From contig SCHM01000009.1 in the NCBI GenBank assembly GCA_004123355.1, positions 62,001-126,000 on the forward strand: a stretch of DNA of 64,000 bases, in the 5' to 3' direction. Within the stretch, counting starts at the first letter, position 1; each line of letters starts with the position of its first letter. This document shows positions 3,366 through 64,000 of the stretch, piece by piece. The notes under the pieces were generated by a model. The model was not told where the DNA came from. It saw only the letters and a list, made by a program, of their open reading frames with translations, and did not search any database. The position numbers and the translations under genes are program-made. The DNA comes from Amphirosellinia nigrospora (Eukaryota > Ascomycota > Sordariomycetes > Xylariales > Xylariaceae).

Positions 3366-3369
3366 ACTC

Positions 3370-33900: not shown

Positions 33901-35667
33901 CTAATCCCTGTTGCTTGTTTCGATTTCTTTCAAGTACTTTAGGAGTCTCTGTAGACCTATGCAGAGAGCCTGCTTTTCGACCGCAAAGCAGATCCGAAAC
34001 CAACCCAGCTCTTCAGTGCAGAAACTGCTACCTGGGGAAATTCCGACACCGTGCTCAAGACAACCCTTGAAGAGCTCTATTTCTCTGTGTCGATACGTCT
34101 CGAGGTCCGACAGCGGCGAGCTCGAAATTGACAAACTTGACCCAGTTTCTTGCTTGTCACTGTTCTGCAAATAGCGTCGGAGGTCAATCCACAGGAACGT
34201 ACCGGCATTACTGCGTATGATATTCAGCCTCAACTCAAGTGCATAGCTGGCAGCCGTGACCTTACGCGTTGCGGTAATACGGGATGTTATGGTCTTCGAA
34301 GAAGTTAAATGCGATCGCACAATGCTCCCTTAGGATGTTTGCATTTTTGGCGATGAATGCAGCTAGGAATTGATCATCTTCAAGCATTTCCGCCCATGCG
34401 TTCTGTGTAAGATAGGGTACCCATTCGAATACGCTACACATGGTTAGCTCCCTATAGTAGTCGGCGCGTGACGGATAATGGGAACTGTGTATTTACATAA
34501 TGCTAGAGACTGCCGATATCAAGCCATCGTTTCTGGAGTAGCACTCCAATTCGAAGCCCACTCGCGCAAAAGTCTTTGCCTACACCATACGCCACGTGGA
34601 CTAAGTGCTGAGCTATGCAATCGCTAAGATCCAGCGATATGACGGATGTAAATGGCGCGGTCTGAGAACCGCGTGGGTTTTCATATGCTGACTTAGCGAA
34701 GATCTCATCGCTGATCAAATGAAGATTGTTCTCGCCACAGAAACGGGCGATTCCTCTCAGCGTTGCGGCGGGCTAGTACCTCAAGTTAGCGTAAATCAAC
34801 CGATATAGATTGAATTTCTCACATAGCACCGGCCAAGTGGGTTGTGAGGACTAATAGTATCATGGTGGTTAGAAGATTTTGTATACGTTGGAGGTCTCTG
34901 ACACGATAGGTTCGTACTTGGAAATCAAGACGGCCCTAACCTTCACGCCATCAGAAGCAGCTTTCCGCAGCGCAATCTCGAGAGCTGCCGGTTCATCTCA
35001 GGACTAAAGACGTCGTCGAGGCTCTGATATCCCTCGAGGGATTGAAAAGCTGCCGGTATGAGCACACCCCTGGATCGTTCTTGGAGCGCAGGCTTGAAGC
35101 CTGTGTAGTAGGGCATGGGACTATGATCCCTTCATTTTCATTACAGATCGACCAGGCCAGGGCATCAAGTACGGATATAACCCCAGGAAGGATTAGAACA
35201 TTGTTGTCCCTCACTGGCTCAAGTGACCTGAATTCCGAGTTAAAGAAAGAGGCCAGTGCCCTTCTCAGGCGTGGTGAGCCCGTGGGCCGACTCCATACCC
35301 AGATCATCATGGGGAGTAGCGGCTATTATCTAGTCACACGGTTAGGATCGGAACGCGAAGGTTGCTCTAGTTAAGACGTGCTCACACTATTCTTAACGTA
35401 TGTACTGATCTCGTGTTGCAGCAGAGGATTCTCAGCCACTCCAAGGAATACCCTGGCCACTTTTAGAAGTTATGCTTCATCGCCGGAGACAGAGGTTGAG
35501 TATCGTCCTTACAGGCCTTCAGGATTTTCGGGAGTCCAGATATTCGCCTGCATAGCTTCCACCTTGTCCCAGGGATGGCCTTGTACAACATTTTGAGCCG
35601 ACCTTTGCGAAAGTCCGTATTTCCGACTTATTTCATCAGTTTCGAGTTGTGATTTTGCGCTATCCAT
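33901..35667 (-). CDS. ACC-synthase-like PLP-dependent aminotransferase (fold type I)
   Basis: The start ATG is at 35667 (MDSAKSQLETDEISRKYGLS). Introns 35512-35453, 35385-35323 and 34917-34851 join exons in phase; further ones lie near 34795, 34500 and 34250. Family marks: VFLGVAENPLLQHEIS, TGSPRLRRALASFFN, LPGVISVLDALAWSICNE, EGYQSLDDVFSPEMN, NPHNPLGRCY (the substrate/PLP-binding Asn-Pro-Gly type loop), HLISDEIFAKSAY, YGVGKDFCASGLRIG with the PLP-binding Lys, and C-terminal NAGTFLWIDLRRYL, VGISPGSSF and WFRICFAVE. Length is about 440 aa, usual for the family. It transfers amino groups or performs related PLP chemistry in the cytosol. Lying 1.4 kb from the A-T-TE gene, it may supply the 2-oxo acid that enzyme uses; this is inference. 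About three single-base frame changes remain (for example near 35145 and 34980), so a precise model is uncertain. Confidence 0.8.
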
Positions 35668-37048
35668 TTTCCTGAAGTGTACAAAGACCAGAACTAGAAT
35701 ACTTAGTGGCCAATGAAAGGATCGGGATGTTCATACTAGATGCCCCAGAAATCAGCTTTATCTCCACTCAGGATCAATGTGAGAGAAAGCAGGGCACACA
35801 AGATAAATATTTGGGGCCATATACCGAGTAATGTTGTAGGGAACGAAAATCTCGCACGGAGCTGATCGTTAGAAGATGTGAATGTATTAGTGTTTAGAAG
35901 CTCTGAAAGCGCAATGAAAGCGGGATGCCCTTCCCTCAAAAAGGGATAAGACCTATGTATAAATACATGAATAACTACCCGGATAGAGTCCCAGATGCTT
36001 ATCTAAGTGCTCCGTTTTAGATACCACCTCCGCCTTCGAAGGGGAGGTTATTCTAGCAGTACCCCCTTGATTATTTCGGCAGTATCAACCGTCTATCATC
36101 TGCGTACCACATTAGCTCATAATTCCCACGCTGTGTACAACCAAAAATGATAAAACATGTGAAAACGCGATATTACCATCATGTTCGTACATGACGATTT
36201 CTTCACGATGTTTCTTTTAGAAACATGGTCCATTTTACACAAGCCAGTTGATTCACAGTGTCTCGAAGTCTCTATTACGACAGGTTTATACTCAAATCAC
36301 TAATATACGCGTCTTTTACAAGATGAGTTGTTGTTGAAGGCGTTAAAGGCGTTGAAGGTAGGCCTGGTAGGTGAGTTAGCTGAAGGTGTTGAGGACAAAT
36401 TGGATGGTGGCTACGTTGAGGGGTTGTGGCTAGCGGGTGGAGTCGTCACCTGCAATACCGCCCAGATAACCAAAGGGGTACTACCAGAATAACCTCGCCT
36501 CTTCGAGGTACCTGTACAGACCTGCACAGTCCAAAATGGGGACCTTATGCACGATATAAACAGATCGGCCACTTAACTCTTGACCTCATACGTAATACTA
36601 TTCACCCGCCACAATGTGATCAGGCATAGCGAGCAAGGGATGTCGGAAGCCGTGTAGACAACAATACCTTCACTTGACTACCTATAGTTCTCGTTCTTTA
36701 GGTAGTTTAAACGCGCCTTTGAGTGAGTATTCTGGAATACAATGGCTGCCCTACTAGCTGTAGCACAGGAACACGTAAATTGGCCTTTAAACTGTAGATG
36801 GCGGGAGAAATATATCGATTCGTAACAAACTTGTTGGAATAGCAAGTCTTAGATTGACTGTAACTCGTTTAATAACGCTTCGATCACTAAGAAGAGGCTT
36901 TTCAGCTAGAACTATACATTTCTATATGATTTGAAGAAATACTAACTACAAAGACACAGACAAATGAATCCTTTGAAGCCCGGATATTTACATCTATCTG
37001 AGTCTCTAAGCGTCTGGATTAGTGCAGTATGACTATTGAACAGTGTTT
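35668..37048. other. Intergenic stretch
   Basis: No gene seen. A short repetitive patch, with gttgttgaaggcgtt and ggcgttgaagg in tandem, lies near 36325-36360. Confidence 0.5.
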
Positions 37049-40000
37049 TCATAGCCCTCTGTCCTTCAAAGCCTTTATCAACGTCGAGGCAAAGCTTTTA
37101 ACATATTGTGGCCCGATCATAGTGTAGTGTGCTCCTTGTACGCCGTGGAACCTTGGTGGCTCACGCACAAAGTCCGCCCATCTGCTTATATGTTCGCGGA
37201 GCCACTCCTCGCGAGATTCTGACACCGCTTTGAGTGGTACGGCATGAAACACATCGATGCTTCCAACCTTTCCCGAGGGGTCATATTCCATCGCCATGCT
37301 TTGGAGGCTGTACACAACATCGACCCAGCGCATCAATGCCTTTCGTTCCAGTCCCAGCTCCTTCAAACGCTGTGTATCGGCTATTTCCAGCACGTGCTGC
37401 AATGCTGCTCCATGGGTGAGTCCGTACAAGGCCATGTCGGCTACCAATGAATCTGAGACATCCTCCGCCAAGAGGTCGAGGAAATGCGCCAAATTAAGTA
37501 GGCATGTACTCCAATCCAGCTGACGAATTCTAGTCTTGATATGTGGTGGTAGGTTGAAAGAACCAAGAAAGCCTACCACTTCCCCGTCACATTCTAATCG
37601 CTTCGCTATCTCAAATGCTAGCATGGCCCCGTAACTGTAGCCGGCCAGGGCATAAGGCCCACGCGGTTGGCGCCCACGGATTGCTGATGTGTATATGTCG
37701 ACAGTCTCTTCGATACTACTGAAAAACTGCTGTCCTTGCTCGAAACCGGCTGCGCGCAGTGCGAACACAGGCCTATGATCGTTAGCGAGGTGTTGAGCTA
37801 GCCGGACGAAGATAAGAACTTCGCCAACACCTGGGTGTACTAGCCATAGCGGCGTCTTGATACCTTCTTGACGGAGGACTATAACAGGGTTGTATGATTG
37901 CACCGGGGTGTTCTCGGGGTCAAGAGACTTGGGTCGGTGGACATAGGCGTCGATGCTGGCAGCTAAAGAGCGAATAGATAGGCTCTTCATGATGTTCACT
38001 ACAGGAAAGTCCATTCCAAGCCGTCTATCTACGCTATATTTGAGCTTGATGACATGCATTGAGGTGAATCCGATGTCGAAAACGCAAGTGTCAGCATGAA
38101 TGTCTAGCATTTCTGCATTCGCTTCTAGAATTTCTGCGATATCCTCAATCAGCTGTGTCTCTGCTTGCGTCGCCCAATTCATGTCGACTTTGCGCCTGTT
38201 CTCCGCAACGCGGCGCATTGCGTGCTCATGCAACTCAATATCATGGCCAAACTCTCCATTCGCGAATAAGATAGCTGCTTTAACCCGCGATATCTTTCCC
38301 AGGGTAGATATAGAGAGTTTCGGTAACGATTGTTCCAGAAGTGGAAAGACGAACGGACAGGCTCCCGTCTTGAGTAGACACGCCCGCGTGGTTAGCCGGA
38401 CAATGGCCGCAGCAGTGCCATCATCTATAGGAAACATGTTGGGAATGTATGCAACTGTCACTTGCTCAGTGTAGGCGGTTTTCGAAGCGAATATAACTAA
38501 TCGTGCGACTCGGTCCCCAAGGGCCTGCTCGATGGCTTCTTGTATGTCACCTGTCGCAACTTTGATGCCGTTGATATTGATGACATCCTTGGACCGGCCA
38601 ACAAGGTTGAGATTTCCGTTTTCATCAATAAATCCGCGGTCTCCGGTTCTAAACCAAAGGTCAGAGGTAAATGCCTCATCTGTAGCATTCTGATTGCGAT
38701 AATATCCCTCAAAGACGACTGAACCACGCACTTCGAGGTCGCCGGCCTCGCCTGGCTCAGCTAAACCAGTGATGCTTTCAGGGCAAGTAATTCGCATCTC
38801 CACACCATTGATGCATTTCCCAAGGGAAGCTACGTCATTGCCCTGGGCGATATCATAACTGGGACACTGTCCATTGTAAATAGACCCGGCACACGTCTCT
38901 GTCATCCCGAAGCCTGTAACGAGGACTTCAGTGCTGGCACCAAGTTTTTGGAACATGGCGGATGTTGCCAGACAGGTCTTGACGTCGTTAGCCTCACCGC
39001 CGGACACTATACCAAGCAAGCCAGAAAGGTTCCATTCCCTTTCTGCAGCTTCCGACACATCAATAGTCGAGACGAGTCTCGCGAGGAAGAAGTTTGGCGC
39101 AAATGTACGAGAGACGCGGTGCCGGCTGAGGAGATCCAGGAAGATTCTAGGCGACGGTACAACGTCAACCGCACTGACATAGACCTGGCCAACGCCGAGC
39201 CACAGTGCGAGTAGATGAATCTCAATCATACCAGCAACGTGATCAAGACCAATCCAATTGAGAAATGGCTGGTCTGGTGGATTCGGGCGAAGAGCAGCCT
39301 TGCCAGCAACCGCGGCTAAGACTTGGCTGTGAGTGAACTTGGCCGCTTTCGCATTTCCAGTACTACCCGATGTCAAGAGGAGCATCATCGGCCAGTCTTT
39401 TCTCCTGATGATAGCTTCTTGGCTGTTTGAACCGCAGACATCGGGATCCATATTCTGAGCTCCATCTAGTGCTGCGTTGGCAATTTCCTGGATATATCGT
39501 GCTTGGTTTCTCATGCAACCTGCACTGCCGCCCCACAATCCTTACACTGAGGTCTCTCGCCATGGGTCGGGCCATCTCGTCGCTCTCCAAGAAGGTTTTC
39601 AACAGTTTTCATGTGGAAATATTGGTCCTCGCCAAATAGAGGCAACAGCCTAGATCTGGTAAAGCAAATAGGGGCTTGCAACAGACCAGACAATGCCTTG
39701 ATGTGCTGAAATCGGTCCTTTTCTGCGTTGCTGAATGGGGTTGAAATGACGGGCATTCCATCAGCAAGAAGCACTGACCAGAACCACAACATGGTATCCC
39801 AGTGGTCATCGAAATGCAGTAGTAGTGGCTGTCCGACTTTAAACTCCTCGAGTGACCGAACTATGATACTATTGCGCTTCGCCCGATGATACAGGTCGGC
39901 ATAAGTGACCTCCATAGCATGACTCGTGTTGCCTAGGGGGTAAAAGAGCATACGTTGCTGACATGACGACTCCGCTCGACGTCTGAGAACATCTTGAAGA

Positions 40001-40065
40001 GTGGCACATGAAGTCACAGAAGTAGAGTCATCGCCCTTCATTTTAGAGTTTACTACCAGTCGCAT
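37049..40065 (-). CDS. NRPS-like A-T-TE enzyme (aryl-pyruvate quinone/furanone synthetase type)
   Basis: Two exons, 40065-39546 and 39471-37049, are joined by a 74-nt intron (39545-39472, GTAAGG to CGCAG) in phase and give 980 aa, the usual length for this class. The adenylation domain has LTSGSTGNAK near residue 206, NWIGLDHVAGMIEIH, which matches the LDHVA/E-H region typical of aryl-acid-activating A-T-TE enzymes, GFGMTETCAG, and FRTGDRGFIDENGNL. The thiolation domain has DIGFTSMHVIKLK with the carrier Ser near 643. The thioesterase has GYSYGAMLAFE (catalytic Ser near 787) and a C-terminal HYTMIG His. There is no condensation domain. Known members (TdiA, AtrA types) activate aryl-pyruvates and couple two of them into quinones or furanones; the product here is inferred only. 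This is the one long gene in the window with no frame break. It is divergent from the methyltransferase gene at 41.8 kb. Confidence 0.9.
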
Positions 40066-41758: not shown

Positions 41759-43282
41759 ATGACCAGCGCTTCGCAATACAGCATGACTTCCAGCGAGACT
41801 GTCCCTCGCATCATTCAGCTTGCGAGTGCTATCATCAAATCAGTATCTAACATCCAGGACACGCTACACGCTAACGGCATTCCATCACCTAGTTTTGACG
41901 AAGACGCCTCCTTCCATCTTCCGCCTGAGACTTCAAAGGATCATGACATTGTGCTTGACGCCACGGCAGAGCTCCATGACTTACTGCTTGAGCCATTAAA
42001 TTTGATTCATAGGCATGGGGCCGTAAGTCAGTGTCGCTGAACATCATGTTAATGGAAACTGACTGTGAGATGATGAAAGCATAACAATTTGCTATGCTTA
42101 GGAGCAATTGCGGAGTTCAAGATTGCGAATTTGGTCCCATTACATGGCCGGGCGTTGTTTGCGGAGATCGCCGCCAAGACGCCCATGACGGAAAAGATGA
42201 CAGCCCGTATTCTACGACACGCCATGACGATGCGAGTGTTCCATGAACCAGAGCCTGGCATGGTCGCCCATACATCTGCGTCGAGGGTTTTGCGTCATTC
42301 GCGGGCCAATGACTGGCTGCAGTCTGGTACACGCGAGATGTGGCCCGCGGCCACCAAGGTGAGTGCAATCAAAGAACCGTGAGCTTCAGCTAGCTCAAAG
42401 CTCATGATTCCAATGCTCCCAGACGATTGAAGCCCTTCAGACTTGGCCAGCATCTGGGAGCCCAATGAAACAGTATGATTGTTCTTCGTCCCTTCCAGTT
42501 GTAGAAAGCACTCAAGTATATCCGTAGGGCTACTCGCTATCGAACGACTCAGGAACACTCTACAGTGTTTTTGCTAAAGACAGTGAGCGAGCTGGTCGAT
42601 GGGCAAGAGGCATGGCGATCTTCGCTGAGCGGCCTCAGTTCAATTTGTCATACATAACAGACCACTATGACTGGAAGTCTCTGGGCTACGCTCAAGTGAT
42701 CGACATCGGTTCCCAAGGTGCTATCTCCATCGCGCTGGCGAAAAAGTATAATGACCTACAGTTGACTGCTCAAGATGGACAGGAAGGTCCAGACGAAGCT
42801 GTTCCAGAAGAGTTGCGCGACAGAGTGCGATTGACAGCTCACGATCCCTTTACCCGCAGCCATGCGTAGGAGCCGATGTGTATTCCCTGCGCTGGATGTT
42901 TCACGCTTGGTCCGATAAATACTGCATTAAAATCCTCCAAGCCCTCGTACCTGCACTCAAGCCAGGAGCCAAAGTTATAGTTCAAGAAACCCTAATGCCC
43001 GAACCCGGCACAGTGGCAATGTGGAAGGAGAAAAACATTAGGTGCGTGAGGTAGATAGATTCCAATACCTGTGAGGTTGTTCTTGACGTCTTCTCTAGAG
43101 CTACCGATCTTAACATGGCGGCCGCGTTTAACGGACAAGAGCGGACCGTGGCTGAGTTGAGGTCGCTTCTTACAAGAGCAGATTCCGGCTTTGCATTCCA
43201 GACTGCAATTGAACCGGCGGGGTCTGCATTTGCGATTTTGGAGTTCACGTGGCAGGGATCAACCAAACAAAGTACCGATTAA
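41759..43282 (+). CDS. O-methyltransferase 1 (subfamily I)
   Basis: The start is the ATG at 41759 (or 41783). Exon 1 encodes the dimerisation helix text PRIIQLASAIIKSVSNIQD and ATAELHDLLLEPLNLIH. The first intron begins GTAAGT at about 42022 and ends GATGAAAG at about 42079, joining HRHGA to HNNLLCLGAIAEFKIANLVP in phase. A winged-helix part follows (RILRHAMTMRVFHEPEPGMV), then EPNET, GYSLSNDSGTLYSVF, the SAM region VIDIGSQGAISIALA, VYSLRWMFHAWSDKYCIKIL, PGAKVIVQETLMPEPG and a C-terminal exon ending at the stop 43280-43282. Such enzymes methylate phenolic hydroxyls using S-adenosylmethionine. Motif I is unusual (DIGSQG where DxGGGxG is normal). Two single-base frame changes (near 42450 and 42855) remain after splicing. 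It converges with methyltransferase 2. Confidence 0.8.
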
Positions 43283-43527
43283 AACTACATCCAAAGAACT
43301 AGCTAGGATTGTTTTTTCTTATCTTTTTGCGCCTTCCATTATTATTCGTCAAGCGTCTCTTTGAGGGTATTCCTAGCGTTGGTATTAAGCCCGGCCACAA
43401 CATCGTTTACTTGATAGTCTATAAAGCTTCATTTCAGATTCACTAAGTTGGAGATAAACGATATCATGAGAATGAGATTTTTACACGTAGCCATTCTTCT
43501 TTAGACGATGTCCCATCCTCCCTTATC

Positions 43528-44833
43528 CTACTTGGCCCGCGGCAGTCGCACGTCCATGACACTTTCGTAATTCTTTTCATAGTAAGTGTACGTGCGTACG
43601 AGCTCGAGTCCCACCTTCAAATACCAGGCGCCACTGTGCCTCAGTGCGTTCCATGCTCGCAAATACTGAAAGCATAGTGATATCAATAGACGCGGTGTTG
43701 AAATTGACTCCCTTCTCAGGAAACACCATTTCGTCGATGAGCAGCACCGATTCGGGACCCATGGCGGCTTTGATGTTTTCAAGCACCAACCTGATTGTGT
43801 AAGGAGGGTGATTGTGTAGCACGGCGCGGAGGTAGTAGAACTTAGCACCGACTACGGGCTGTGGCTCCAGCATGTCATGCGCCATGTTTTCGACGCCCGG
43901 TGTTGGCAGTGCCTGTTCTACGGAGTGCGGGAGATCCTGCAGCACAATGCGACCGGGTAGGTTGGGATATTTCTCCCGAAACTGCGCGCACTGGTGACCA
44001 ACTCCGCCGCCGATATTGACATATAGTGGCTTCTCGGATGGCCACGCAGCGGCTTCCTCCGCGACAGGATATATAGACAACCAGGTAGAATCAGGGTTCC
44101 GGCGGAGGGCCATGTAAGTATTGAAGTGACTTAACTGTGCTGGGTTCTGGCCGAACCAGGCGTAGGCATTCAAATCTGTATTGAAGGCCAAATTGAAGGC
44201 CGTGTTCGTTCCAGTCACCGGGTTTTGGTACCCAGCCTGCTCTAAGAAGGCAGGAAAAGATTGAGCCGCCGGAGCAGCCGTGCTGAAGCTGATTATTGAA
44301 TAAGTAAAGTGTTGCTTAAGACGAGATCATAGAGAAAACCAACTAGTGAGATATCCCAGCCTCGACAGCTCTGTCGCGGAGGTTGCGTGTGACATGGTTG
44401 GCCTCATAGTGGTACTTCCCAGTCTCGTGAACCGCTCCCGCAGCAGCGAGAAATCTCAAGAGGCGAACTAGACAGATTGTGAGTTCTGATTAGAGCCTGA
44501 GTTCACATTGGGTCTTACCCATCAACAGTGGATCCGTCCCAGACTTCTCTGATATCTCATCGACTGTTAAGGGCTTTTCATGCTGTGACATGTATTTGAA
44601 GAGACCTAAGTTGATTCCGACTTGGACTACGGCAGATTGAAGATTCTACTTGCTGGTTAGTTGAGCAACTATAGAGTTTGTAGCAATTAACCAACCATAT
44701 GTCCATATCTGTGGATAGTGTCCTCGGTAGTTTCGAACGAGAAGAGTAGCTCTTGGAGACTACTCATCACTTGCTGGCGGCTCGCATCGCTCTCATTAGC
44801 GAGCAACGTGATTTGTTCTTTAATTGCTTGCAT
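43528..44833 (-). CDS. O-methyltransferase 2 (subfamily III)
   Basis: The start is the ATG at 44833 in a short first exon (MQAIKEQITLLANESDASRQ). Introns 44695-44648 (48 nt), 44518-44468 (51 nt) and about 44346-44292 are all in phase. The winged-helix domain reads NLQSAVVQVGINLGLFKYM and PLTVDEISEKSGTDPLL, then RLLRFLAAAGAVHETG. The catalytic domain shows YVNIGGGVGHQCAQFREKYP (SAM motif I), GRIVLQDLPHSV, AKFYYLRAVLHNHP with a His in the place of the usual base region, and SVLLIDEMVFPEKG. A late frame change near 43612 separates this from the tail ELVRTYTYYEKNYESVMDV, which ends at 43528. The family methylates phenolic oxygen atoms of polyketides and aromatics in the cytosol. The sequence differs enough from the others in this cluster to be a third subfamily. 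Confidence 0.85.
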
Positions 44834-50083: not shown

Positions 50084-51634
50084 CTAGGAAAGCAATCCTT
50101 CAAGCCTCAGAATTGGGGCGTCCCATACTATCTCCAAGGTCGATAGCAGTGAATGCTCTGGCGTTATGACCCGTTGAAGACAAAATCTTTCGTCAGCCGC
50201 TGCAAGTAGAGCTTTCCACTCACTCAGATATCGACAGCGGGCGTTGAAATTAGCTCCGATAGCCATATCAATTGCTCTGCATCACTTGTCAGCAATCTCG
50301 ACTGTTCCGAAAGTAAAGGCCATCGGACCTCACCTCATTTCACGGTCTCTCCAGAGCGGAACGGCGCCAGGTTCCGGCATGACGATTTCCATTAGCAAGA
50401 TTTTGGCACCAGGTCGGAGGACGGGAACTTGTGCTCGTAGAATCTTGAGAGCATCTTTATCATTTCGAATCTGAATGACTAGGCGCAAGAGATAAACATC
50501 GGCTTGGAAGGATTGGGGCTCAAAGACGTCGTGGGCCTTGAATTCGATACGATTTTCCAAATCAACAGGCACCTCTGTTTCCGCACCGGCGATGACCTTG
50601 CCCATATCTTGAACAAGAAATTTGAGATTTCCAAAGCGCTTCGTCAGCACTGCGGCAACATCACCTCGCTGTCCACCAACCTGGCAGACAAAAGCTTCGC
50701 CTAGAGAGGCCCAGTCATATAGCTCGACGACGTCTGCAGCGGCCCAGCCATCAAAGTGATCATGGGCGTCGATTCCACCCTTGAGACGTATCGCTCGTGC
50801 ATGATCCGCGGCAATTAGTTCAAATGCGGACTTGTCGGAGTTGTTCGCAAGAGAAAAGCCCTATGAAGATTAGTCTCCACAATAAGAAATGTAGAAGGCA
50901 GCGCGATAAAGGCTAAGCACTCACAGTATGGTTGGGCTCTTGCGATGATGGCCACTTCTGAATGGCGTCTAGAAACTGCGGTAGATCCCCTACGTCAGTC
51001 CATCCATATAATTAAGTCTCGCCCGGGTTGATAGGCTGAGAAGCGTACCCTAGTAGCTGCAGGCCAGCCTTCTCGGGCGCCAAAGCCCACAAAGTCCTTT
51101 ATGGATGGTTCGACGAAGTACCTGGACAATTTCGTATGTGCCACCATGCCAGACTCGGGCTCATAGAAGATACGCCTGGCTATCGCGTGCCTGAGCAGGC
51201 GCCGGACAAGTGATTCATCCAGGCCCGTTGCTTAGCAATCTCTCCAAATGAGATCTGGCCTCCAAGAGGAACGACATTGGCGAAGCCAAATCGGCTTATG
51301 GCGTCGATGCCGACTGTGTCTGTAGTCTTGGAACATCAGCTTTGATGTTGCTCTCATATTGCTCTCTTTCCATTGAGGGGCCCTGGGCTCTTACGGCACA
51401 AAATCTGAAGATTAGGCGAACTGGTTCCATGAGAAGCTCATGAAGCTCGGTAGTCGCGTCAAGCACGGCATCCTGGAGGTGGGCGGTATTGTCTGGCAGC
51501 CGCTCAGGGCTATCCACAGTGAACGATGGTGATGGCACACCCTGAGCTGATAGAACCTCCTGGAGCTGTGAAACAGACTCGCTAATCTTGGCAGCCAACT
51601 CGATGATTCGGGGGCTCGTAGTTGAAGATTCCAT
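50084..51634 (-). CDS. O-methyltransferase 3 (subfamily I)
   Basis: The start is the ATG at 51634 (MESSTTSPRIIELAAKISES; an upstream in-frame ATG lies at 51643). Exon 1 ends in RLIFRFCA and an intron starting GTAAGA joins it in phase to TDTVGIDAISRFGFANVVPL. Next come GEIAKQ, then LDESLVRRLLRHAIARRIFY (after a single-base frame change near 51236), FLDAIQKWPSSQEPNHT, an intron starting GTGAGT near 50925, GFSLANNSDKSAFELIA, the SAM region VCQVGGQRGDVAAVLTKRF, IEFKAHDVFEPQSFQADVYL, and GAKILLMEIVMPEPGAVP. The last intron (GTGAGG to TGCAG) leads to a C-terminal exon ending in APILRLEGLLS. It is a paralogue of methyltransferases 1 and 6. The SAM motif I acid is Gln here, which could weaken cofactor binding. 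It is divergent from methyltransferase 4. Confidence 0.85.
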
Positions 51635-52355
51635 GATTTTCAATATAAAGTCAGAAGAAGATGTTCAAGTCACATATCAGTACAGAGAGCTGAGGCGAGA
51701 GGAATGGTCGTTTCGTCGTTGAGCGACTGTTGCAGGATTGAACTCTTCGAAAATTCGAGGGCATGCCCTGGTACCCATGATATCTAGAGGCAAGCTCAGG
51801 GGTTTGCTTACCCTTCAGCTGGTTAGTTTTCCACACTACATGGAGTAAGTAAGGTTGTTCGGTAAGGTCGCCCGCTAAGGTCCACGCAGGAGGCGTACGG
51901 GTGAGGATTTGTGTGGATGACCCCTGACCCATGCACTCACCCCGCACCAGAATTAGCTATAGAGGCAGGATGCGGGTGATAAGCAAGCATTTGTGTGGCG
52001 CATTTTGGAATATTTGGCCGGTGCAATCCCGTCTTGGCTGGCTGCACGTTCTTCGAGCTGAATTATACAGGACTCATTTTCTAAGACTAGTATGGGACCT
52101 ATCGCGTCACGTCATCAAGCAGATCGAACTTTAGTACCTGCCTAATCCCTAATTGGTACATTGGACTACTAAGAGGTAGGTATAGAATACACTCATGTCA
52201 TTGCTGTCAGATTATACTGTACTACCAGCGTTGCCATATACACCACCTTGCCACTGAGACGTATTTATTTGCTGACACTTAAGTTTGACCTCTCTTTTTC
52301 GGGCTTATCTGTATTTTGTCAACTCAGACTCGTCCATTTATTGGTGCACATCAAA
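51635..52355. promoter_or_regulatory. Shared divergent promoter of methyltransferases 3 and 4
   Basis: 720 bp separate two head-to-head start codons. The half-site word agtacctg occurs near 52130; the same word forms half of the 16-bp palindrome found twice in the other divergent methyltransferase promoter (62461-63374). The regulatory role is inferred from position only. Confidence 0.35.
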
Positions 52356-53950
52356 ATGGAATGGACGGCGGCTCAATACGAAGAACTCGCACAACAAATT
52401 GAATCTATCTTGCAGGACCCGGAAGCCCCCCATGTCAATATTCCTGACGAAAAAATTCGCCGCCGTCTTGCAGACGGTGTTCGTAAACTCAGCATCCTTC
52501 TGGAGGAGCCGAGACACACCATGAGCAGACTTGAGCACGTGGTAATTACTTAGGAACTCCTTCTCTATCGAAAGTAGACTCCCTGACTCGGTTCTGACCT
52601 TGACCAGCACTTTCAGCTCCCACTGGCCATCATCGGCGCCGAAACAGGGGTATTTGCCGCTCTGGCAGCCGAGGTTCGACCTTTCACCAGCGCGGAGCTT
52701 TCACAGAAGACTGGTGTGGCTTTAAGCCTCCTGAGTATGCCTCTCTTTTCCTTTCGTCCTGGAAGCTGAACCAGGAGTGTTAAGAGTGTTTAGAAAGGCT
52801 TCTACGTTACTACCAAGCCCTTGACATGGTATACCAAGTCGGCAATGATGCGTTCCAAGCCAGCAACGTAACGCGGGTTGTAAGTGACGAAGGCCATGCC
52901 GATGCCCTTCGATTCGCGTAAATAATAGTCGCTTTCCCAAATTTCATGAGCAACGCTGACAAACGGTGATAGGCAAAAGATTATGGGCCCCCCGTTGTCA
53001 GTCTTCCTGACTTACTCCAGTCCATCGGATACAAAGACCCACTGGCATCATGCCCACAGCTCTGTCTAAGGCTCACAATACGGAAAAGCATGCCTACTCG
53101 TGGCTTGGGGAGAACCCGTGGGCATTGAAGCTCACTCTTGCGTACATGAAGGTTCAGTTTGAAGGTAGACCGTTATTTTTCGACATCTTGGACTTCCAGG
53201 CCCGCTTTGGCACGGACTCCACGGACTCCACGATTCTGTTCGTCGACATTGGCGGTTCGACCGGCTCTCAATCTCGTGAATTCCGGCAGCGATACCCAAG
53301 CCTCGCTGGAAGGGTCATCATACAAGACCGACCAGAGATTGTGCAGAAAGCCAGGTCAGCGCTAGCAAGCGCTACAAACATTGAACTGGAGGAGTATGAT
53401 ATCTTTACGCCTGAGCCAATTAAAGGTAATATTCACTCAAAAGCTTTGCATATTATTAGAGCATGATTAGTTGACACCCGCACCACTCTTCTCAGGAGCA
53501 CGCGCCTACTATATGCGCAAGATCTTGCACTCGTTCGCAGATGAAGAGTGCTTGGAAATATTAGCAAACGTAAAGGCGGGCCTGAATGAACAGTCAGTCA
53601 TCATGATCGACGAGACTGTCCTGCCGGAACGGGATGCTAGACCAAGAGCGGCTCAGCATGATATAGAGGTGATGATGAGTGTTGGCAAGTACCCCCCATT
53701 TCAAAATTCATACTTTGCTACTTCTCCAACGCCTTATAACCCAACTGTGTATCCCTGCGACTTAGTGTATGCTATGTACACGGCACGGAACGCTTACAGC
53801 GTTAGCACGCTAACTTATGAATCTATAGGTGCAAAAGAGCGCACAAAGGCTGAGTGGGAACAGATGCTTAATGAGGCAGGATTTAAGCTGCACGAAGTGG
53901 TAACATATGACGCAGACTACTATGAATGTTTGATCATTGCAGGCCTTTGA
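52356..53950 (+). CDS. O-methyltransferase 4 (subfamily II)
   Basis: The start is the ATG at 52356 (MEWTAAQYEELAQQIESILQ). The intron at 52542-52607 precedes HFQLPLAIIGAETGVFAALA. The next intron (GTATGC to GTTTAG, about 52736-52796) joins in phase to LLRYYQALDMVYQVGNDAFQ. The catalytic domain has ILFVDIGGSTGSQSREFRQR (SAM motif I), GRVIIQDRPEIV, an intron near 53428-53496, then ARAYYMRKILHSFADEE with the catalytic-type His, and SVIMIDETVLPER. A GC-AG intron at 53685-53828 (GCAAGT to CTATAG, 144 nt, stop-free) is supported by the GT-AG intron at the same place in methyltransferase 5. The tail ends YYECLIIAGL at 53950. A frame problem near 52920-53045 remains unsolved. Plant- and fungal-type phenol O-methyltransferases share this layout. 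Confidence 0.85.
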
Positions 53951-54053
53951 ATGCTAGGCAGGGAATTTGCCCGCTCTCAGGTTTCAAGTCTATATCATGT
54001 CATAAATCATGACAAGATTATCATCACTTGCTTGTTGCACGTAGTCGTATCAT

Positions 54054-54083
54054 TAGAGAGAGAGAGAGGGAGAGAGAGAGAGA
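54054..54083. repeat. (GA)n microsatellite
   Basis: About 30 bp of alternating ag with a single ggg interruption, in the gap between methyltransferase 4 and the C2H2/JmjC-like gene. Confidence 0.9.
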
Positions 54084-54150
54084 TTGACTCACGAATAATC
54101 GAAACTCGTATTTAGTTTCAAAAGGCATTGTACAAAACTTGCATCAAGTG

Positions 54151-56090: not shown

Positions 56091-57052
56091 TCACCGCTCC
56101 TTCTCTCGTTCCAAGAACTCTCTCCAGGTTGTCAACGGCACAGTAGCCTGAGTTCCTCCAGATCAACATAATCCGATGTGTGACGCAGCTTTGTGTGAGT
56201 TAGAGAACCCACTCGAGTTAGCCTGGGCCTCGACTTCTTCATCAGTCAGGAAGAGCGCTCTAACCGAACCCGGTTGGCCTGCAGCTTCGGCGAGCAGGTC
56301 AAGATATCTTGCACGCGCATCTGGTCACTGGCTAGGCCGATAGCACGGCCGTGAAAATCAGCGGGATCCTGGAACGCCGCCGCAGCAAACTTGGCAATGT
56401 CGACATGATCCACGATGGGTAGTGTGTCGGCGTCATGGAAGTAGTCCAGCTGCGCTTATCGCGTATTTCAGCATATCGCTGACCTTGGGCTCGACGAAGT
56501 TAGCCATGAAGAAGGTTTGGCCGCAGGAAGGTGAAGTGCTCGAATCCGCAGTCTTCCACTGACTGCTCGATTGCCTTCTTGTTGATCATATGCTTCTCCA
56601 TGTATGATCCAGGATACACGCCTATGTCTGAATTAAGCATCGAGACGCCTAGCGTGGTAGAGGACACAACCTGCTTTACGCCAACCTCCTTGGCGATCTT
56701 CAGGATGTCTCGACACTGGAAGTAGACAGTAAGCCGACATGAACAAGTTGAACTCTTGCTGCTTTCAATGACGACGAACCTGGCGAAGCTCGCAGCTGAG
56801 GTCCTCCCAATTGATAGTGAGGCACAGGAACAGCTTATCACACCCTTTAATGCTTGCTCTGAGAACCTCAAGATTGTCCCAATCACACTCATGGAAACGG
56901 ACACCAATGCTCTTCATGGCTACGGCAGCCTGGGAGTTTAGATCACGTGTCGTCGCATGCACATTCCAACCAATCTCTCGGAGCCTCCTAGACAGGGCGC
57001 CTCCTTGGAAACCAGTCGCGCTGCAGACAAACACTGAGTGCTCCGAGGTAGC
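56091..57052 (-). CDS. NmrA-like NAD(P)-binding protein
   Basis: The start is the ATG at 57052 (MATSEHSVFVCSATGFQGGA; another Met lies two codons upstream). The Rossmann dinucleotide loop reads VCSATGFQGGALSRRLREIG. Then follow VHATTRDLNSQAAVAMKSIG, FHECDWDNLEVLRASIKGCD and KLFLCLTINWED. An intron near 56780-56715 leads to CRDILKIAKEVGVKQVVSST, KKAIEQSVEDCGFEHFTFLR, FFMANFVEPKVSDMLKYAIS, TLPIVDHVDIAKFAAAAFQD, VRALFLTDEEVEAQANSSGF and TTWREFLEREKER, ending at 56091. The family contains redox sensors and atypical short-chain reductases acting in the cytosol. In a biosynthetic cluster a tailoring reductase is the likelier role. The 3' half carries about three or four frame changes and one stop, so activity is doubtful unless these are sequence errors. 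It is divergent from the MFS gene. Confidence 0.75.
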
Positions 57053-58223
57053 CATGATCAAAGCTTCTTTCTGAATGCCAAACTATGTCGACGAATGGTA
57101 GATGAAGAGCAGATACGCACTTGGGACTGGTCACTACGGTGGACGACAACTTCTGTCGAAAGCTTCCGTCGGATCGTACCTAAAGGCTAGGTACCTGGTC
57201 GTCAGCTGACTGTCTGTCTTCGAGGCTACCTGCATAACTCTGAATGCAACGTGAAGGATTTATGCGAAGGACTCGGATGCGCCATTATGCTAGAACGTAT
57301 GGGCAGTGGGGTGGTCGTGCCTGGGCACCTACTACGTGCTAGCTCTATTAATACAAGACTCAAGCAGAAGCTTAACAGCCAGCACCCGTATCATCACAAT
57401 ACTTTGGTTACATGTTTATCCATATTTTTCCAACCGGCATAGCCTGAAGCGAGGGAGGGTCGTAACGCCATCGAAATGGAGGCATCTGATTGAGTAGGAA
57501 TAGGTATCGATGTGCATTGTCCGCATCGCGAGAACTACTACCCAGTAAGTAGCGGTGTACTTAACAAATAGCAAAAAAGAAGGTGACAAACGATATCGCG
57601 ACTCTTGACGTCGCAGCGTCACAATCGTTAGGGCAGATGCTGTAAGATTCCATGTAACGACCCATGCATATTGAGGATTCGAGGGGCAGCGGAGAACGCA
57701 CTGCGTGTGTGCATACTCAGTAATACATGTAAGTAGGTCCTGTATGGTACTTGCATGATACTTGCAGCTTTCGCATGCCCTTTATTCCAAGGATCATCTG
57801 GCATACTAGTATGTCAACCTCTATCACACGAGTTCTGCATGTTGCATGATAGATGGCCTATACAAGTCCTGTAGATTAGCAGATTTTCACGGCGATCAGT
57901 CCAGATTGGACATTCTGAATGCAACTCAAGCTGGAATGCTGTAATTAGGCTGGAGCTGATCATTGATTCTACACCACCCGTGCGTGCACGTACTTATCTC
58001 ATGTCGGTCTGTTTTCAATACTACCCTCCTAAACCAACAGGCGAATGAGGACCGTTTTGATGCAGGGATTCGTGGCAAGTTGCGTTTCCCATCAGAACCG
58101 ACAGCCCTAGGCTGGCTGGCCGACTTCTCGAGCCCTAGCTCTCCCTCTTCTAAACTCAAGTCTCGTTTCTCTCTATCTCAGCATCTCACGCCGCTAGTAC
58201 TGCTAGTGGCGCCAAAATCCACG
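57053..58223. other. Divergent intergenic region, NmrA-like / MFS
   Basis: 1.2 kb between divergent starts, no gene supported. An in-frame extension of the MFS frame upstream to 57963 exists but lacks transporter-like sequence. Confidence 0.5.
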
Positions 58224-60440
58224 ATGGCTGCACCCCAGTCCCTTAAGCACGATTCCTCTTCTGGGCTCGCTCCTTCGCCTGAAGCTGTCCCTCCGCTCGT
58301 CGACAGTACGGATGCCGACGCGAGCAGAGATCCGGCTGCCATTGAGCCGAAACCCGATCCCGAGTACGTGACCGGCGTCAAGCTTGCCATCATTGTAGCC
58401 ACCGTCGGGTTTGCCAGCTTCCTCATACTCTTAGATCTCATGATCGTCAGCACGGTATGGCTACATCTTTGAATTTTGAGCTTGTCACATAACCTGACTG
58501 TGCGACTCAGGCCGTTCCGAAAATCACTGATGATTTCATTCCCTCGGCGATGTTGGCTGGTACGCCAGTGCCTATCAGTTTGGAAGGTAGGTTTGGTCCA
58601 TCCGCATTTGCACACGCCCAACCGTCTCACATTGCTGGCTGCTATTGAAGTGCGTCACCACAGCCATTGACAGGGAAAATATACAAGTACTTCAACACAA
58701 AAGTTCGTATAGAAACTTGCGACCCCCTATGTTTCGAGTCCTGTCTGATCGTATCTCAACAGTGGACCTTTTTAGTCTTTTTTGCCGTGTTTGAGATCGG
58801 CTCCGTCATTTGCGGTGCTGCCAATTCATCAGCCGTCTTCATTGTTGGTCGGTTCATCGCGGGCTTTGGTGGTGCGGGTGTCGCTACCGGCACTATCGCT
58901 ATAGTATCAAACAGCGCGCCTCTTGAAAAGAGAGCAGGTGAGCGAGATCGATTGATCACAACATCTGACGAGGTATTGACGCGTAAACTTGGCTAGGACT
59001 GTTGGGTTTCACGTTGGGCTGTGAGTTCCGGCATAACTCCTGATACAACTGGATATGACTCGTGCTCACTGGCAAATCAACAGTTAATCTCCTTGGAATC
59101 GTTCTAGGGCCTCTCATCGGAGGCGCTTTCACGTCTTACGTTACCTGGCGTTGGTGTACGCTTGCCGCTTTATCTTACCCAGCTTTTCGAACCATTGGCT
59201 AAGTAATTACCGATACCAGGTTTCTATATCAACCTACCCATCGGCGCGGTAGCAGCGCTCTCCATATTTGTCCTACGAGTTCCTGAACCGATAATCAAAC
59301 CGAAAGCTCTATCGCTACTGCCGAGGCTGCATCACCATCTCGATCTCGTTGGTTTTATTCTCTTCGCGCCCGCGATCTTGCAACTACTTCTCGCTCTTCA
59401 ATTTGGCGGCCAGGTCTATCCATGGAATTCCTCTCAGGTAATCGGCCTCTTTGTGGGCGCGGTTGCCACCTTAGCCGTCTGGTTCTTATGGAATCGATAT
59501 CGCGGTGAGGATGCCATGTTGCCCCGCGCATTGATCCGCCGGAAAAATGTCTTGGCTGCTGCCTTGTACAACGCCTCCCAGACGTCAGCGCTTTACGCAG
59601 CAATTTATTACCTCCCGATCTATTTTCAAGCTGTCAAGGGAGCGAGCGCAGTACTGAGTGGCGTATATCTTCTTCCATTGATCCTGTTTCAGCTCGTATG
59701 TGCTGGCGCCTCAGGCGGCGTGTGTAAGTTGAAGAGCATCTATTCATAAAATAGTTGCTGTCGGTATTGACATTTAATTTAGTACAAAAGATAGGCTATA
59801 CTATTCCTATAACTCTCTTCGCTTCAGTCTTCCTCTCCACTGGAACAGGTCTTCTCTCCCTCCTTCAACCCAGCACTTCGACTGCCCGTTGGGTGGGATT
59901 CCAGATTCTTGTAGGCGTTGGCTTTGGGTCAGGGCTGCAAATGGCATGTATTATTTGTTCAGCAAAAAAACCTCTCTACTGCATAGTTCTGACTTCTTCT
60001 CCGAATACTAGCCTATTATCGCTGTACAAGCCGCGATGGAGGGCGAGGAGCTGGCCTCTGGTATCGCTTTTATGGTCTTTGCCCAGGCGATCGGTCCAGC
60101 CATTGCGAATACCCTCTACAACGTGATATTTCTCGCGAGCTTACCGGCGCAAATCGCCGAATTTGCGCCGCACGCGGACGCCGAAGCTATTATTGATGCC
60201 GGTGCTTCCGGATTCCGCTCCATCGTCTCGCCTGAAGACCTGAACGGTGTAGAGGTCGCATACTCAAACAGCTTGGGCCGGATCTACTACTTAGCAGTGG
60301 CCTTTGCGGCGCTTTGTGGGATTGCCTCGTGGGGAATGGGATGGAATGACTTGCGAAAGAAAGAGGTGGATGTTACAGAAGCCAAAACTGACAGCACAGG
60401 TGCTGATGGCCGAGTAGAGGAGGTTAAGGAGGCAGTTTGA
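58224..60440 (+). CDS. MFS drug:H+ antiporter, DHA2 (14-TM) type
   Basis: I take the ATG at 58224 ([14 protein letters not shown]), which starts a Ser/Pro-rich cytosolic tail before the first membrane helix ([20 protein letters not shown]). Motif text: [56 protein letters not shown] (near 58820), [56 protein letters not shown], and the last helices to [20 protein letters not shown]. At least seven short introns are visible (58456-58510, 58587-58650, 58703-58762 and others near 58940, 59020, 59160 and 59724), all with usable splice sites. It exports small molecules across the plasma membrane using the proton gradient; in this cluster the cargo is probably the final product. One single-base frame change lies near 58537. 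It ends at 60440. Confidence 0.9.
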
Positions 60441-60959
60441 GGTTAAGGTTTGCCCTTCTGAATGTTCCCAAGCTCTTTGAGCTTGACTGCGCATTCTGAG
60501 TTTCTTGGAGCAAATTGTTTAGAGACGAAGAAAGTTAGCTCGTCAGTTGTAAACCATAGCCAAAGGCACGACATTTATTTCACTCTTTTTTACCTACATA
60601 TAATTATTTAATAATAAAGCTTATAATTTACCTCCCGTTGTTTGGTTTCGTTTACACCTATTTCCACGCTATTTGTGGGAAACAACCAACATCGCTAACC
60701 AGATTACAGTCTCCTATGTCATTGACCTCTCAGCAACTTCGGCGAATTGCTTCTTGCTAGTAGGACAAAATGATGTGTACTGCGACAATTGAACCAGTCT
60801 TTCGTCGACTCTTTAGATATAGGAGGTACTACTCACAGAATGAATAACTAGGGGTTGAGGCATGATTCTTATTTGATTGACAACAATACCTCTTGGTTGA
60901 CTTTCCGGACCATTCTCCAGGGTCTATCGGGCGTGCCAGTTGGTCGCAAATACACACGG

Positions 60960-62460
60960 TTAAGCAAGGCCTGCAATGATCAAAGCGTCTTCATAATCCT
61001 CGTCATACTTCACCACCTCATGAACCTTCAATCCAGCATCGCTTAGCAGATTTGCCCATTGACCTTCAGTGCGTTCTACGCCACCTATTATATACCACTC
61101 GACAATTAGCGGACCTCCGCGTTCCAGTTTGCAAGATACTCGTATTACATCTAGAAGAAAGTTCTGGGGAAGCAGCACCTACCTACGCAAATCATGACCT
61201 CTATGTCGAAATCAGCCGCCTGGCCTTTGGCATTCCTCTCGGGAAGAACTATATCGTCAAGAATGAGCACCGACTCTTCAGCCATGCCGGCCTTGACGTT
61301 GAGCAAGATCTCCACGCATTTGGCGTCTGCCCAAGCATGGAAGATGTTTCGCATGTAATAAGCTCTGGCTCCTCGAACGGGCTGCGGCGTGGTAGAGAAA
61401 TTGTATGCCTCCGCCTCGATATTTGCTGTATTTATGAGCATTTCACTGACGCGCTCTACGACCTCTGGCCGGTCTTGGAGGAGAACTCGTCCGGGAAGGT
61501 TTGGATATTGCTGCCGAAATGCAAGAGACTGGGATCCCGTTCCGCCTCCGATATCAACAAACAGAACTGTTGTTGAGCTGGTTGTATTGTCCTGGGCAGC
61601 AAAGCGTTTCTGGAAGTCGAGGGCATCGATCCATGATTTTCTTCCCACCCTTTGGACGGCCATATGCGATTGGTGAAGTTTCAATGCCCAAGGATTGTGC
61701 TTCAAATAGGTAAAGGGATCTAACTCGGTGGGGATCGCGCTTGTCCAAGCTGTGGGCATAACACCGACAGCGGCCCTATACTGAGTTGACCGGAGCCAAT
61801 CTGGAAGGTTCCAACTCCCTTGCGCAGTGATTTTATGTCTATATGCTACGTCGTTAAACGTCAAGGAAGTGATTTGTTTCATAATGTGTGCTTACGTGAA
61901 TCGAAGTGAATCGCCGTGATTCTCGCTACTTAGAACATGGGTCACATTGCTCGACTGGTATGCATCGTCGGCAACTTGAGAAACCATATTACTGGCTTGG
62001 TAATACCGTAATAATCTCTCTGGGAATTTTGTAAGTATCTCTATGTTAGGGTGAATGGTATTAGATGCTATTTTACTCAAGAGCTGCATGTCCACGCCCG
62101 TCTTCTCTGCGAGCTCGGCGCTGCCAAAGGCACGGTTCTCCGACGACAATGCAGAGAAGACCCAGTGTCCGCTCCGACAACAGTCATAGGTAGTATGAGA
62201 TGCTAATAGTGATTGATGGGCTGCAGTGAGTCAAAGCAGCTCTTGAGCAAAAAGGGGGTCAATGGAACTCTACAAACCGAGTATTGGATTCTGCGACACG
62301 TCTCTCTAGGTAATTCCAGAGACTCGGCAAGTTTGCGCCCGCCCTCGACTAGGCGACGGCGAGTTCTCTCATCCCCGAGTTTGAGAGCACCGTCCAGGCG
62401 CTGCAGAAGCGATTCAATCTGATCTGCTAGCGCCTCATATTCGGTAGCGTTGTATTTCAT
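60960..62460 (-). CDS. O-methyltransferase 5 (subfamily II)
   Basis: The start is the ATG at 62460 (MKYNATEYEALADQIESLLQ), matching methyltransferase 4. Further text: RRRLVEGGRKLAESLELPRE, an intron, TVVGADTG and FSALSSENRAFGSAELAEKT, an intron (GTAAAA to CCCAG, about 62078-62009), RLLRYYQASNMVSQVADDAY, an intron after SLRFT (GTAAGC), then FTYLKHNPWALKLHQSHM, VLFVDIGGGTGSQSLAFRQQ (SAM motif I), GRVLLQDRPEVV, ARAYYMRNIFHAWADAKCVE with the catalytic-type His, and SVLILDDIVLPERN. A GT-AG intron beginning GTAGGT near 61188 leads to GVERTEGQWANLLSDAG and the tail EDALIIAGLA. One frame change near 62170 is the only break seen. It is divergent from methyltransferase 6 and inverted relative to the 3/4 pair. 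Confidence 0.85.
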
Positions 62461-63374
62461 TTTAAATTGCTGTCACACTTCAAAATGACGCCGTTAGACG
62501 TCTACAGAGTCTAACGATATTTATAGGTTCCACCTGAGGGCTACTAACGCGGTGATGGGAAAGGCACTCAGTAGCTTGGAAGAAGACCTCATTGTCCAGT
62601 TATGATTATCGTGCCAATGAAGCAGGCGGATCGTACGTATGGATGTACCTACGAGGTATTCACCATGTAATTCACCATGTAATGTACTTATGTTAGATAT
62701 CTTTGTGCGGGTCACAGGTACTAGTACCTGTCAAGATGTACCTACGAGGTATTCACCATGTAATGTAAGTACTTACTTATGTTAGATATCTTTGTGCGGG
62801 GTCACAGGTACTAGTACCTGTCGAGAGACTGGTCTCAGTCAAGGATCCAGGCTTGCCTCGCTTTCCCTGCCACCTGAGACGGAATCCGGGCGCAAACCAT
62901 GCACTAGTGCTCTCTCATCCCTTGTCGGTGATTGGATCGATCTTGTAGTATCCGGCTCCAACCAAGAGCCTGCTTCAATCAGCCTCTGGTTTCATGCAGT
63001 TGGACGTTGGGCCCTCTTAACATTGCAACCTCGGGTTCCTACGAAAGTGCCAAGCGTTTGTGGTGTGACTCAGTTGAGATGAAGAATGTGTCAGTGTGAG
63101 AGCCTTTGTATCAATAACATCCCAACGCTCGTGGGGGCCAAATGACGTGTAGCCTGCTGTCTAATACACGGATGTAATCCTCTCCGCTCCAACTGCCGCT
63201 GGGGGCTGAATGAGGAGAAGAGCAATAAGTCCTCCATATCCAAACCCAAAGAGGCAGAGAGGCAGAGCCTAATAATCGCAACTCTCTTTCAAGCTCCATC
63301 TCTGTGAGATTAGATATCGCATCTCACCTATCGCGCCCACCTTTTAGATTTTGCCATCTTCCTTCTCGGTCAAA
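62461..63374. promoter_or_regulatory. Shared divergent promoter of methyltransferases 5 and 6
   Basis: 914 bp between head-to-head start codons, containing the near-90-bp tandem duplication at 62642-62822, each copy ending in the same 16-bp palindrome. No gene is seen, although a 96-codon plus frame exists. A role in co-regulation is inferred from position and repetition. Confidence 0.45.
62642..62822. repeat. Tandem duplication, about 91 and 88 bp, each with a 16-bp palindrome
   Basis: Copies 62642-62732 and 62735-62822 share gatgtacctacgaggtattc, accatgtaatgta, cttatgttagatatctttg and gtcacaggtactagtacctg. The perfect palindrome caggtactagtacctg lies at 62715-62730 and 62805-62820. Copies differ only by small indels, so the duplication is recent. 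Confidence 0.9.
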
Positions 63375-64000
63375 ATGACACCACCTGACGCTACTCCCAA
63401 AATCGTCGAACTAGCTGCGAAGATAAGCAGCTCAGTTGCAGAGCTACAAGAACATCTATCAGCCCAGGGACTCGAGTCCCCATCCTTTGCTGAGGATAGC
63501 CCTCCAACCCTCCCTACCGAGCTGCATAAAATTCGGGATGATGTCCTGGACGCAACTGCTGAGCTCCATGAGGTTCTCTTGGAACCTCTGATGCTGATCT
63601 ACAAATTCGCAGGTGTAAGGATCTCTTGGGATCAGCTAGGTGCTCACAAACTAATATTCTCAAGGTCGCGAATGTCATCAGCATTGACTCTATTGTCCGG
63701 TTCAAGATTCTGGACATGATCCCGTTTGGCAGCAAGGTCTCTTTTGAAGATATTGCAGAGAAGACGAAGCTTGATAAAGGGCTTGTTAGGCGCCTGCTTC
63801 GATATGCGATAACCATGCGTATCCTGACCGAACCGGAACCAGAGATGGTAGCACATACCAAGATCTCCAAGTTCTTAGCCATCCCATACATTACCGCCTG
63901 GGCCAACTTTGAGAGCCGCGATACCTGGCCGGCTATTCCCAGAGTAAGGGCACCTCATTTATATGAAACACAGAGAGTATCGTTCTAACACAGGTGCTCT
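63375..64000 (+). CDS. O-methyltransferase 6 (subfamily I), 5' part
   Basis: The start is the ATG at 63375 (MTPPDATPKIVELAAKISSS). Exon 1 carries LQEHLSAQGLESPSFAEDSP and ATAELHEVLLEPLMLIYKFA. An intron at 63615-63664 (GTAAGG to CTCAAG, 50 nt) joins in phase to VANVISIDSIVRFKILDMIP. The winged helix follows (FEDIAEKTKLDKGLVRRLLR, TMRILTEPEPEMVAHTKISK), then ITAWANFESRDTWPAIPR. A second intron starts at 63944. The gene runs off the window before the SAM-binding domain. No frame break is visible in the part seen. It is the third member of the subfamily with methyltransferases 1 and 3. Confidence 0.85.

Follow-up and report, generated by a model that had tools for sequence, protein, structure and literature searches.

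A putative A-T-TE secondary-metabolite cluster of Amphirosellinia nigrospora with a mirror-duplicated pair of O-methyltransferase-fold genes, one member of which lacks the catalytic histidine

Synthetases that join an adenylation (A), a thiolation (T) and a thioesterase (TE) domain in one protein, a non-ribosomal peptide synthetase (NRPS)-like arrangement, form the core of several described fungal gene clusters. In the terphenyl-type clusters of the Hypoxylaceae, ric and its relatives, the A-T-TE gene is accompanied by several O-methyltransferase (OMT) genes, partly arisen by duplication, by up to four cytochrome P450 genes, by an oxidoreductase in ric and by an aminotransferase in two cases (PMC8403587; this and the other published accounts are cited from excerpts). 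The alf system, responsible for allantofuranone, combines a phenylpyruvate-using A-T-TE enzyme with an OMT and a dehydrogenase (PMC12105029). In the tdi system, which yields terrequinone A, an A-T-TE enzyme is found with an aminotransferase and a reductase. The OMT fold itself can serve other chemistry. LepI, a pericyclase that depends on S-adenosylmethionine (SAM), retains the SAM motif and carries an arginine in place of the catalytic histidine (PMC6533283, PMC10491745). The role of this residue, Arg295, has been shown (PMC6533283), and it stands in for the essential histidine of the methyltransferase OxaC; HpiI, a Methyltransf_2 protein, is a SAM-independent pericyclase (PMC10491745). Here, a locus of the xylariaceous fungus Amphirosellinia nigrospora is compared with these systems. 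The stretch analysed (the window) comprises 64,000 nucleotides, positions 62,001 to 126,000 of contig SCHM01000009.1, and is part of the contig designated C11 (252,870 bases) in a genome of 48.1 Mb and 11 contigs. Its right half holds an A-T-TE gene and six OMT-fold genes, OMT1 to OMT6.

On balance, the locus is best read as a cluster for a secondary metabolite, centred on a quinone-synthetase-like A-T-TE enzyme, in which a phenylpyruvate dimer would be decorated and OMT3 and OMT6 would not serve as ordinary methylating enzymes. Between 33.9 and 64.9 kb the gene order is aminotransferase (−), A-T-TE (−), OMT1 (+), OMT2 (−), P450 (+), OMT3 (−), OMT4 (+), NmrA-like (−), major facilitator superfamily (MFS) transporter (+), OMT5 (−) and OMT6 (+). 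A preliminary description, made from the sequence alone, had listed the same set, and matches to Pfam families or solved structures bear out each member: one A-T-TE enzyme, an aminotransferase resembling 1-aminocyclopropane-1-carboxylate (ACC) synthase, six OMT-fold genes, a P450, an NmrA-like protein and an MFS protein. Because Hypoxylaceae clusters with an A-T-TE gene and multiple OMTs have been published, the cluster as such is of a known kind, and the earlier remark that six OMTs are unusually many holds only in part, several duplicated OMTs having been reported there (PMC8403587). The ric cluster, compared by its description, differs in having two OMTs and no aminotransferase and in its assignment to 4-hydroxyphenylpyruvate (PMC8403587). 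The alf system differs in its single OMT and in a ring-cleaving dioxygenase, a 3-deoxy-D-arabino-heptulosonate-7-phosphate (DAHP) synthase and a transcription factor, none of which was met here, where no dedicated search for them was made (PMC12105029). The tdi system differs in using indolepyruvate and a prenyltransferase (PMC12105029). What this analysis adds, within the reach of a limited literature search, is the mirror duplication of a two-gene OMT unit with one histidine-less member. No earlier report of such a pair in an A-T-TE cluster was found among the titles and abstract openings covered, and the excerpted Hypoxylaceae text mentions neither paired OMT types nor loss of the catalytic histidine (PMC8403587).

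All six genes match Methyltransf_2 above the curated Pfam cut-off. Alignment divides them into two types that are 19–25% identical to one another. Type A comprises OMT1, OMT3, OMT6 and a paralogue on contig C1 (L037); type B comprises OMT2, OMT4 and OMT5. Each type A gene of the cluster has a type B neighbour, so that three A/B pairs result: OMT1/OMT2, arranged tail-to-tail, and OMT3/OMT4 and OMT5/OMT6, both head-to-head. The two head-to-head pairs are an inverted duplication of one such pair. When 50.0–54.05 kb was compared with 60.8–64.95 kb by blastn, six segments of 67–72% identity were found, all inverted and colinear. The proteins tell the same story: OMT3 and OMT6 are 51% identical, and OMT4 and OMT5 are 53% identical over 290 comparable residues, against 40–45% for other type A pairs and 30–32% for other type B pairs. 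Identity at codon positions 1, 2 and 3 is 0.62, 0.75 and 0.40 for OMT3/OMT6, and 0.67, 0.77 and 0.40 for OMT4/OMT5. As the second position is conserved and the third has diverged equally in both comparisons, both halves of the duplicated pair have evolved under constraint at the protein level. Among the best-scoring OMT places listed elsewhere in the genome, no A/B neighbour pair was present; the two closest genes, at 8.059 and 8.070 Mb on contig C4, lie about 10 kb apart and both match best with the type B query.

The type A member of each duplicated pair has lost the catalytic histidine. This residue is kept in OMT1, OMT2, OMT4 and OMT5, which with their Methyltransf_2 matches have the make-up of canonical O-methyltransferases; it is replaced by arginine (CGC) in OMT6 and by glutamine (CAG, 50474-50476) in OMT3. 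As a control, the site was read in the other OMT loci that cover it, as listed by two whole-genome searches in which the best candidates were scored. The histidine was found in 19 of 19 genes, namely 18 of 18 short loci and the C1 paralogue. In OMT3, the glutamate position of the catalytic dyad is also changed, to cysteine. The dyad glutamate is a weaker marker than the histidine: among 13 of the 18 loci, those for which an alignment covers this column, it is Glu in ten, Gln in two and Asp in one (a weak alignment). To judge from these residues, normal methyl transfer by OMT3 and OMT6 is improbable, and four ordinary methyltransferases plus two OMT-fold proteins with another role would be expected. 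The product had been predicted to be highly methoxylated on the strength of six OMTs. Six OMT-fold genes are indeed present, but the prediction is weakened, since two of them are without the catalytic histidine. A phmmer comparison with solved structures places OMT6 nearest to 7bqj, a Methyltransf_2 protein, and to HpiI, both aligning along the N-terminal stretch as well, and then to LepI. In the LepI alignment, the OMT6 arginine falls on Arg295 (numbered by hand count), whereas OMT3 has its glutamine at that position.

The A-T-TE protein shows the three domains in the expected order by Pfam. Its gene is spread over two frames that overlap, 217 and 830 residues long from stop to stop. Excision of a 74-nt GT-AG stretch, 39472-39545, presumably an intron, leaves exactly 980 stop-free residues; our own gene finder placed the start at 39514 instead. 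The enzyme had been called intact at 980 residues, which is only partly borne out, the raw gene having two frames. It is the sole full-length match among 15 genome places listed. A candidate second gene on contig C1 (C1:11762501-11767000) was rejected: only thioesterase pieces, 38% and 62% identical and with in-frame stops, were recovered (local positions 3744-4197), no A domain was detected in the 4.5 kb searched, and the place looks like a remnant. The solved chains nearest to the cluster enzyme are McyG (5e-52), 6ulw (2.2e-40) and 6ulx (1.6e-39). We take McyG to accept phenylpropanoid-type acids and 6ulw to come from a keto-acid module. The A-domain pocket, in GrsA numbering, reads V299, G301, G322, A330, G331 and K517; the GrsA reference stretch was checked against 1amu. 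Code position 5 is valine, as in polyporic acid synthetases (Ile or Val) and unlike the asparagine of atromentin synthetases. Valine or isoleucine here goes with phenylpyruvate and asparagine with 4-hydroxyphenylpyruvate, although specificity is not strictly decided by this position (PMC10316625). Because of this valine, phenylpyruvate is a likely substrate, and it is our best guess from the pocket. The aryl-pyruvate pathway proposed earlier is accordingly supported by the nearest A domains, by the pocket residues and by the adjoining ACC-synthase-like enzyme, and can be narrowed towards phenylpyruvate. Quinones, furanones and dioxolanones are all known as products of this enzyme family (PMC8403587; PMC12105029), and a furanone or dioxolanone in place of a quinone is possible, if not the outcome we expect.

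The label of the adjoining enzyme, 1.4 kb from the A-T-TE gene, has held. With its pieces spliced by hand and joined by X, it matches ACC synthases at 2.4e-39 to 8.1e-38 among solved structures, far ahead of aspartate aminotransferases at 5.5e-12 or weaker. Two stretches of this pyridoxal phosphate (PLP) enzyme were scanned, and the last one alone reached the Pfam cut-off. A genome search with Aminotran_1_2, in which the best 9 of 36 candidates were scored, did not list it. The earlier description had suggested that a partner of this type would be uncommon; a literature search aimed at it found no paper.

Several observations weigh against the reading favoured here. (i) OMT6 retains the dyad glutamate, and both OMT3 and OMT6 retain the GG-x-x-G SAM motif. 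(ii) His133 of LepI, an enzyme of a different, polyketide synthase (PKS)-NRPS type of pathway, is phenylalanine in OMT6 (alignment read by eye). (iii) In the same alignment, 7bqj and the pericyclase HpiI keep histidine where OMT6 has arginine, so that the residue at this site by itself cannot separate a methyltransferase from a pericyclase. (iv) Among solved proteins, the C-terminal 233 residues of type B OMT4 are nearest to LepI (1.6e-38) and MpaG' (5.2e-32); OMT4 matches LepI better than OMT6 does, yet it keeps the histidine. In view of the histidine of HpiI and 7bqj, the His133 mismatch and the OMT4 match, the claim is confined to loss of the usual base and does not extend to membership of the LepI group. 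(v) Some methyltransferases, those of the DnrK type, work without this histidine, and OMT3 and OMT6 may therefore still methylate. (vi) The two head-to-head promoters have two 10-mers in common, against a mean of 1.4 after shuffling, which is nothing above chance; co-regulation of the pairs is consequently argued from their shared intergenic regions. (vii) Code position 1 of the A domain, a valine in the keto-acid code of non-reducing A-T-TE synthetases, is Val or Ala here depending on gap placement (gap at GrsA 235). (viii) Most gene models are our own splices, and the A/B pair with a histidine-less member is known here from the sequence of one genome. A first gene-finder run, which called far too many introns, was discarded in favour of stricter and region-wise runs, and the final models lean on homology among paralogues.

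The chief argument for a joint role of the histidine-less and the canonical OMT is that they were duplicated as a unit. The pathway may have recruited OMT-fold proteins for a step other than methylation: OMT3 and OMT6, kept after mirror duplication together with a working OMT, might catalyse a cyclisation or dehydration of the aryl-pyruvate-derived core, or might each be bound to OMT4 or OMT5 in an obligate mixed dimer; we put this forward tentatively, as one possibility. About as much can be said for six working O-methyltransferases and a heavily methoxylated product, OMT3 and OMT6 using another base or, with acidic central-ring phenols, none. The Methyltransf_2 matches and SAM motifs are consistent with this, and the DnrK type offers a precedent. 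It is made less attractive by the control set, in which the histidine was invariant while it is gone only in the two duplicated type A members, and by the altered glutamate position of OMT3. A non-catalytic role, in which OMT3 and OMT6 would set substrate or stability as subunits of heterodimers with OMT4 and OMT5, is somewhat doubtful. It would suit the head-to-head layout and the equal divergence of a unit duplicated together, and the same-fold LepI has been suggested to need dimerisation or oligomerisation to be active (PMC6533283). Mixed dimers are not, however, what the low identity between types A and B would lead one to expect, and no fungal precedent was recognised among the titles and abstract openings covered.

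Frame breaks bear on two further alternatives. Frame changes fall within conserved stretches of the aminotransferase (at least three, by eye), OMT1 (one) and OMT3 (one). Hsp70 genes from the same assembly served as a control. Four of them contain six places at which matches in different frames overlap by 4–14 bases; a fifth gene has a seventh frame change, spanning a 17-base gap. Split examples are C8:855379-857197 and C7:1398639-1400274, while the gene at C5:4071527-4072810 is open across 657 residues. Frames were read directly for the C8 gene, where the arrangement is incompatible with an intron, and for the others were taken from match coordinates. As conserved Hsp70 genes are also split over frames, the assembly carries small insertion or deletion errors; frame breaks therefore say little about gene function, gene calls from this genome have to take such errors into account, and the split cluster genes look like products of assembly error and not of decay. 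That OMT3 and OMT6 are decaying copies is very unlikely: the frame break of OMT3 and the changed catalytic residues of both might suggest it, but their second codon position is conserved over the third as in OMT4/OMT5, Hsp70 genes are broken too, and the 419-residue model of OMT6 is open. An inactive cluster, with the aminotransferase, OMT1 and OMT3 as true pseudogenes on account of their breaks, is equally hard to credit given at least six like breaks in the four Hsp70 genes, the open 830-residue A-T-TE frame and the open OMT6. Relative to its length, the aminotransferase is broken more often than the Hsp70 genes.

Table 1. Features of the cluster, in window coordinates, with the matches on which each call is based.
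Feature	Position	Strand	Evidence and remarks
ACC-synthase-like PLP aminotransferase	33901..35667	-	Aminotran_1_2 (Pfam) on last piece; split over several frames
A-T-TE (NRPS-like) synthetase	37049..40065	-	AMP-binding 1.2e-27, PP-binding 1.6e-6, Thioesterase 1.4e-27 (Pfam)
OMT1	41783..43282	+	Methyltransf_2 5.1e-17; type A with the catalytic His; a single frame break
OMT2	43528..44833	-	Methyltransf_2 3.3e-14; type B with the catalytic His; tail-to-tail with OMT1
Cytochrome P450	45534..47123	+	p450 9.5e-17 on C-terminal piece 46653-47120; 1.4e-15 on read-through
First copy of OMT pair	50000..54050		Mirror copy 60800-64950; blastn
OMT3	50117..51634 (left end approximate)	-	Methyltransf_2 4.8e-17; type A; His to Gln; one frame break
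OMT4	52356..53950	+	Methyltransf_2 4e-25 on 233-residue C-terminal part; type B with the His-Glu dyad; head-to-head with OMT3
NmrA-like NAD(P)H-binding protein	56246..57055	-	NmrA 3.5e-10; spans more than one frame
MFS transporter	58224..60480 (right end 60440 or 60480)	+	MFS_1 1.1e-11 on gene-finder model
OMT5	60960..62460	-	Methyltransf_2 6.4e-19; type B with the His-Glu dyad; head-to-head with OMT6
OMT6	63375..64000, on to window-equivalent 64877	+	Methyltransf_2 8.5e-21; type A; His to Arg; 419-residue model

The remaining cluster genes would form a tailoring and export set (table 1). The 299-residue N-terminal piece of the P450, scanned alone, had no Pfam match. A read-through scan of the MFS gene likewise matched no Pfam family, whereas the gene-finder model did match MFS_1. 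The NmrA-like protein is a candidate quinone reductase. Between OMT4 and this gene, at 54154-55660 (−), open pieces in several frames include a Cys/His-rich stretch that by eye recalls fungal proteins with zinc-finger and JmjC-like parts; the read-through at 54.1–55.7 kb matched no Pfam family above cut-off. The cluster had been thought to continue past the right edge of the window. This is so for the end of OMT6, which lies 877 bases beyond it, and the right border is set at OMT6 as a matter of judgement. Six of 39 open frames listed to the right of OMT6 were scanned: three pieces belong to two Fung_rhodopsin genes, one is a P450 piece, one is Hsp70-like and one had no Pfam match. The P450 piece (−), at window-equivalent 77.7–78.2 kb and some 13 kb beyond OMT6, may belong to one more tailoring gene or have nothing to do with the cluster. 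Near the left border, G+C content is 0.60–0.63 at 30001-32000 and 0.43 just to the right. At the far left of the window, a long open frame at 40-5215 (+) was fused by the gene finder with a helicase-like stretch; by eye, its motifs resemble those at the end of a peptide synthetase.

A pathway can be proposed, with its steps assigned from the protein families concerned. (i) The ACC-synthase-like PLP enzyme would supply an aryl-pyruvate, most likely phenylpyruvate. (ii) The A-T-TE enzyme would condense two aryl-pyruvates, probably to a quinone of the polyporic acid type. (iii) The NmrA-like protein may reduce this core, and (iv) the P450 may hydroxylate it. (v) Up to four canonical OMTs (OMT1, OMT2, OMT4 and OMT5) would methylate the core. 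(vi) OMT3 and OMT6 would either be OMT-fold enzymes put to a new use, as in LepI, or work in partnership with OMT4 and OMT5. (vii) Finally, the product would be exported by the MFS protein.

Diversity among A-T-TE pathways comes from tailoring. The duplicated pair is a clean case in which catalytic residues have changed while the protein has stayed under constraint. If two of the six 'methyltransferases' do not methylate, counts of OMT genes overstate methoxylation when products are predicted. In that case the pair would stand for a novel kind of tailoring or for a methyltransferase built of two subunits, and either would be directly testable.

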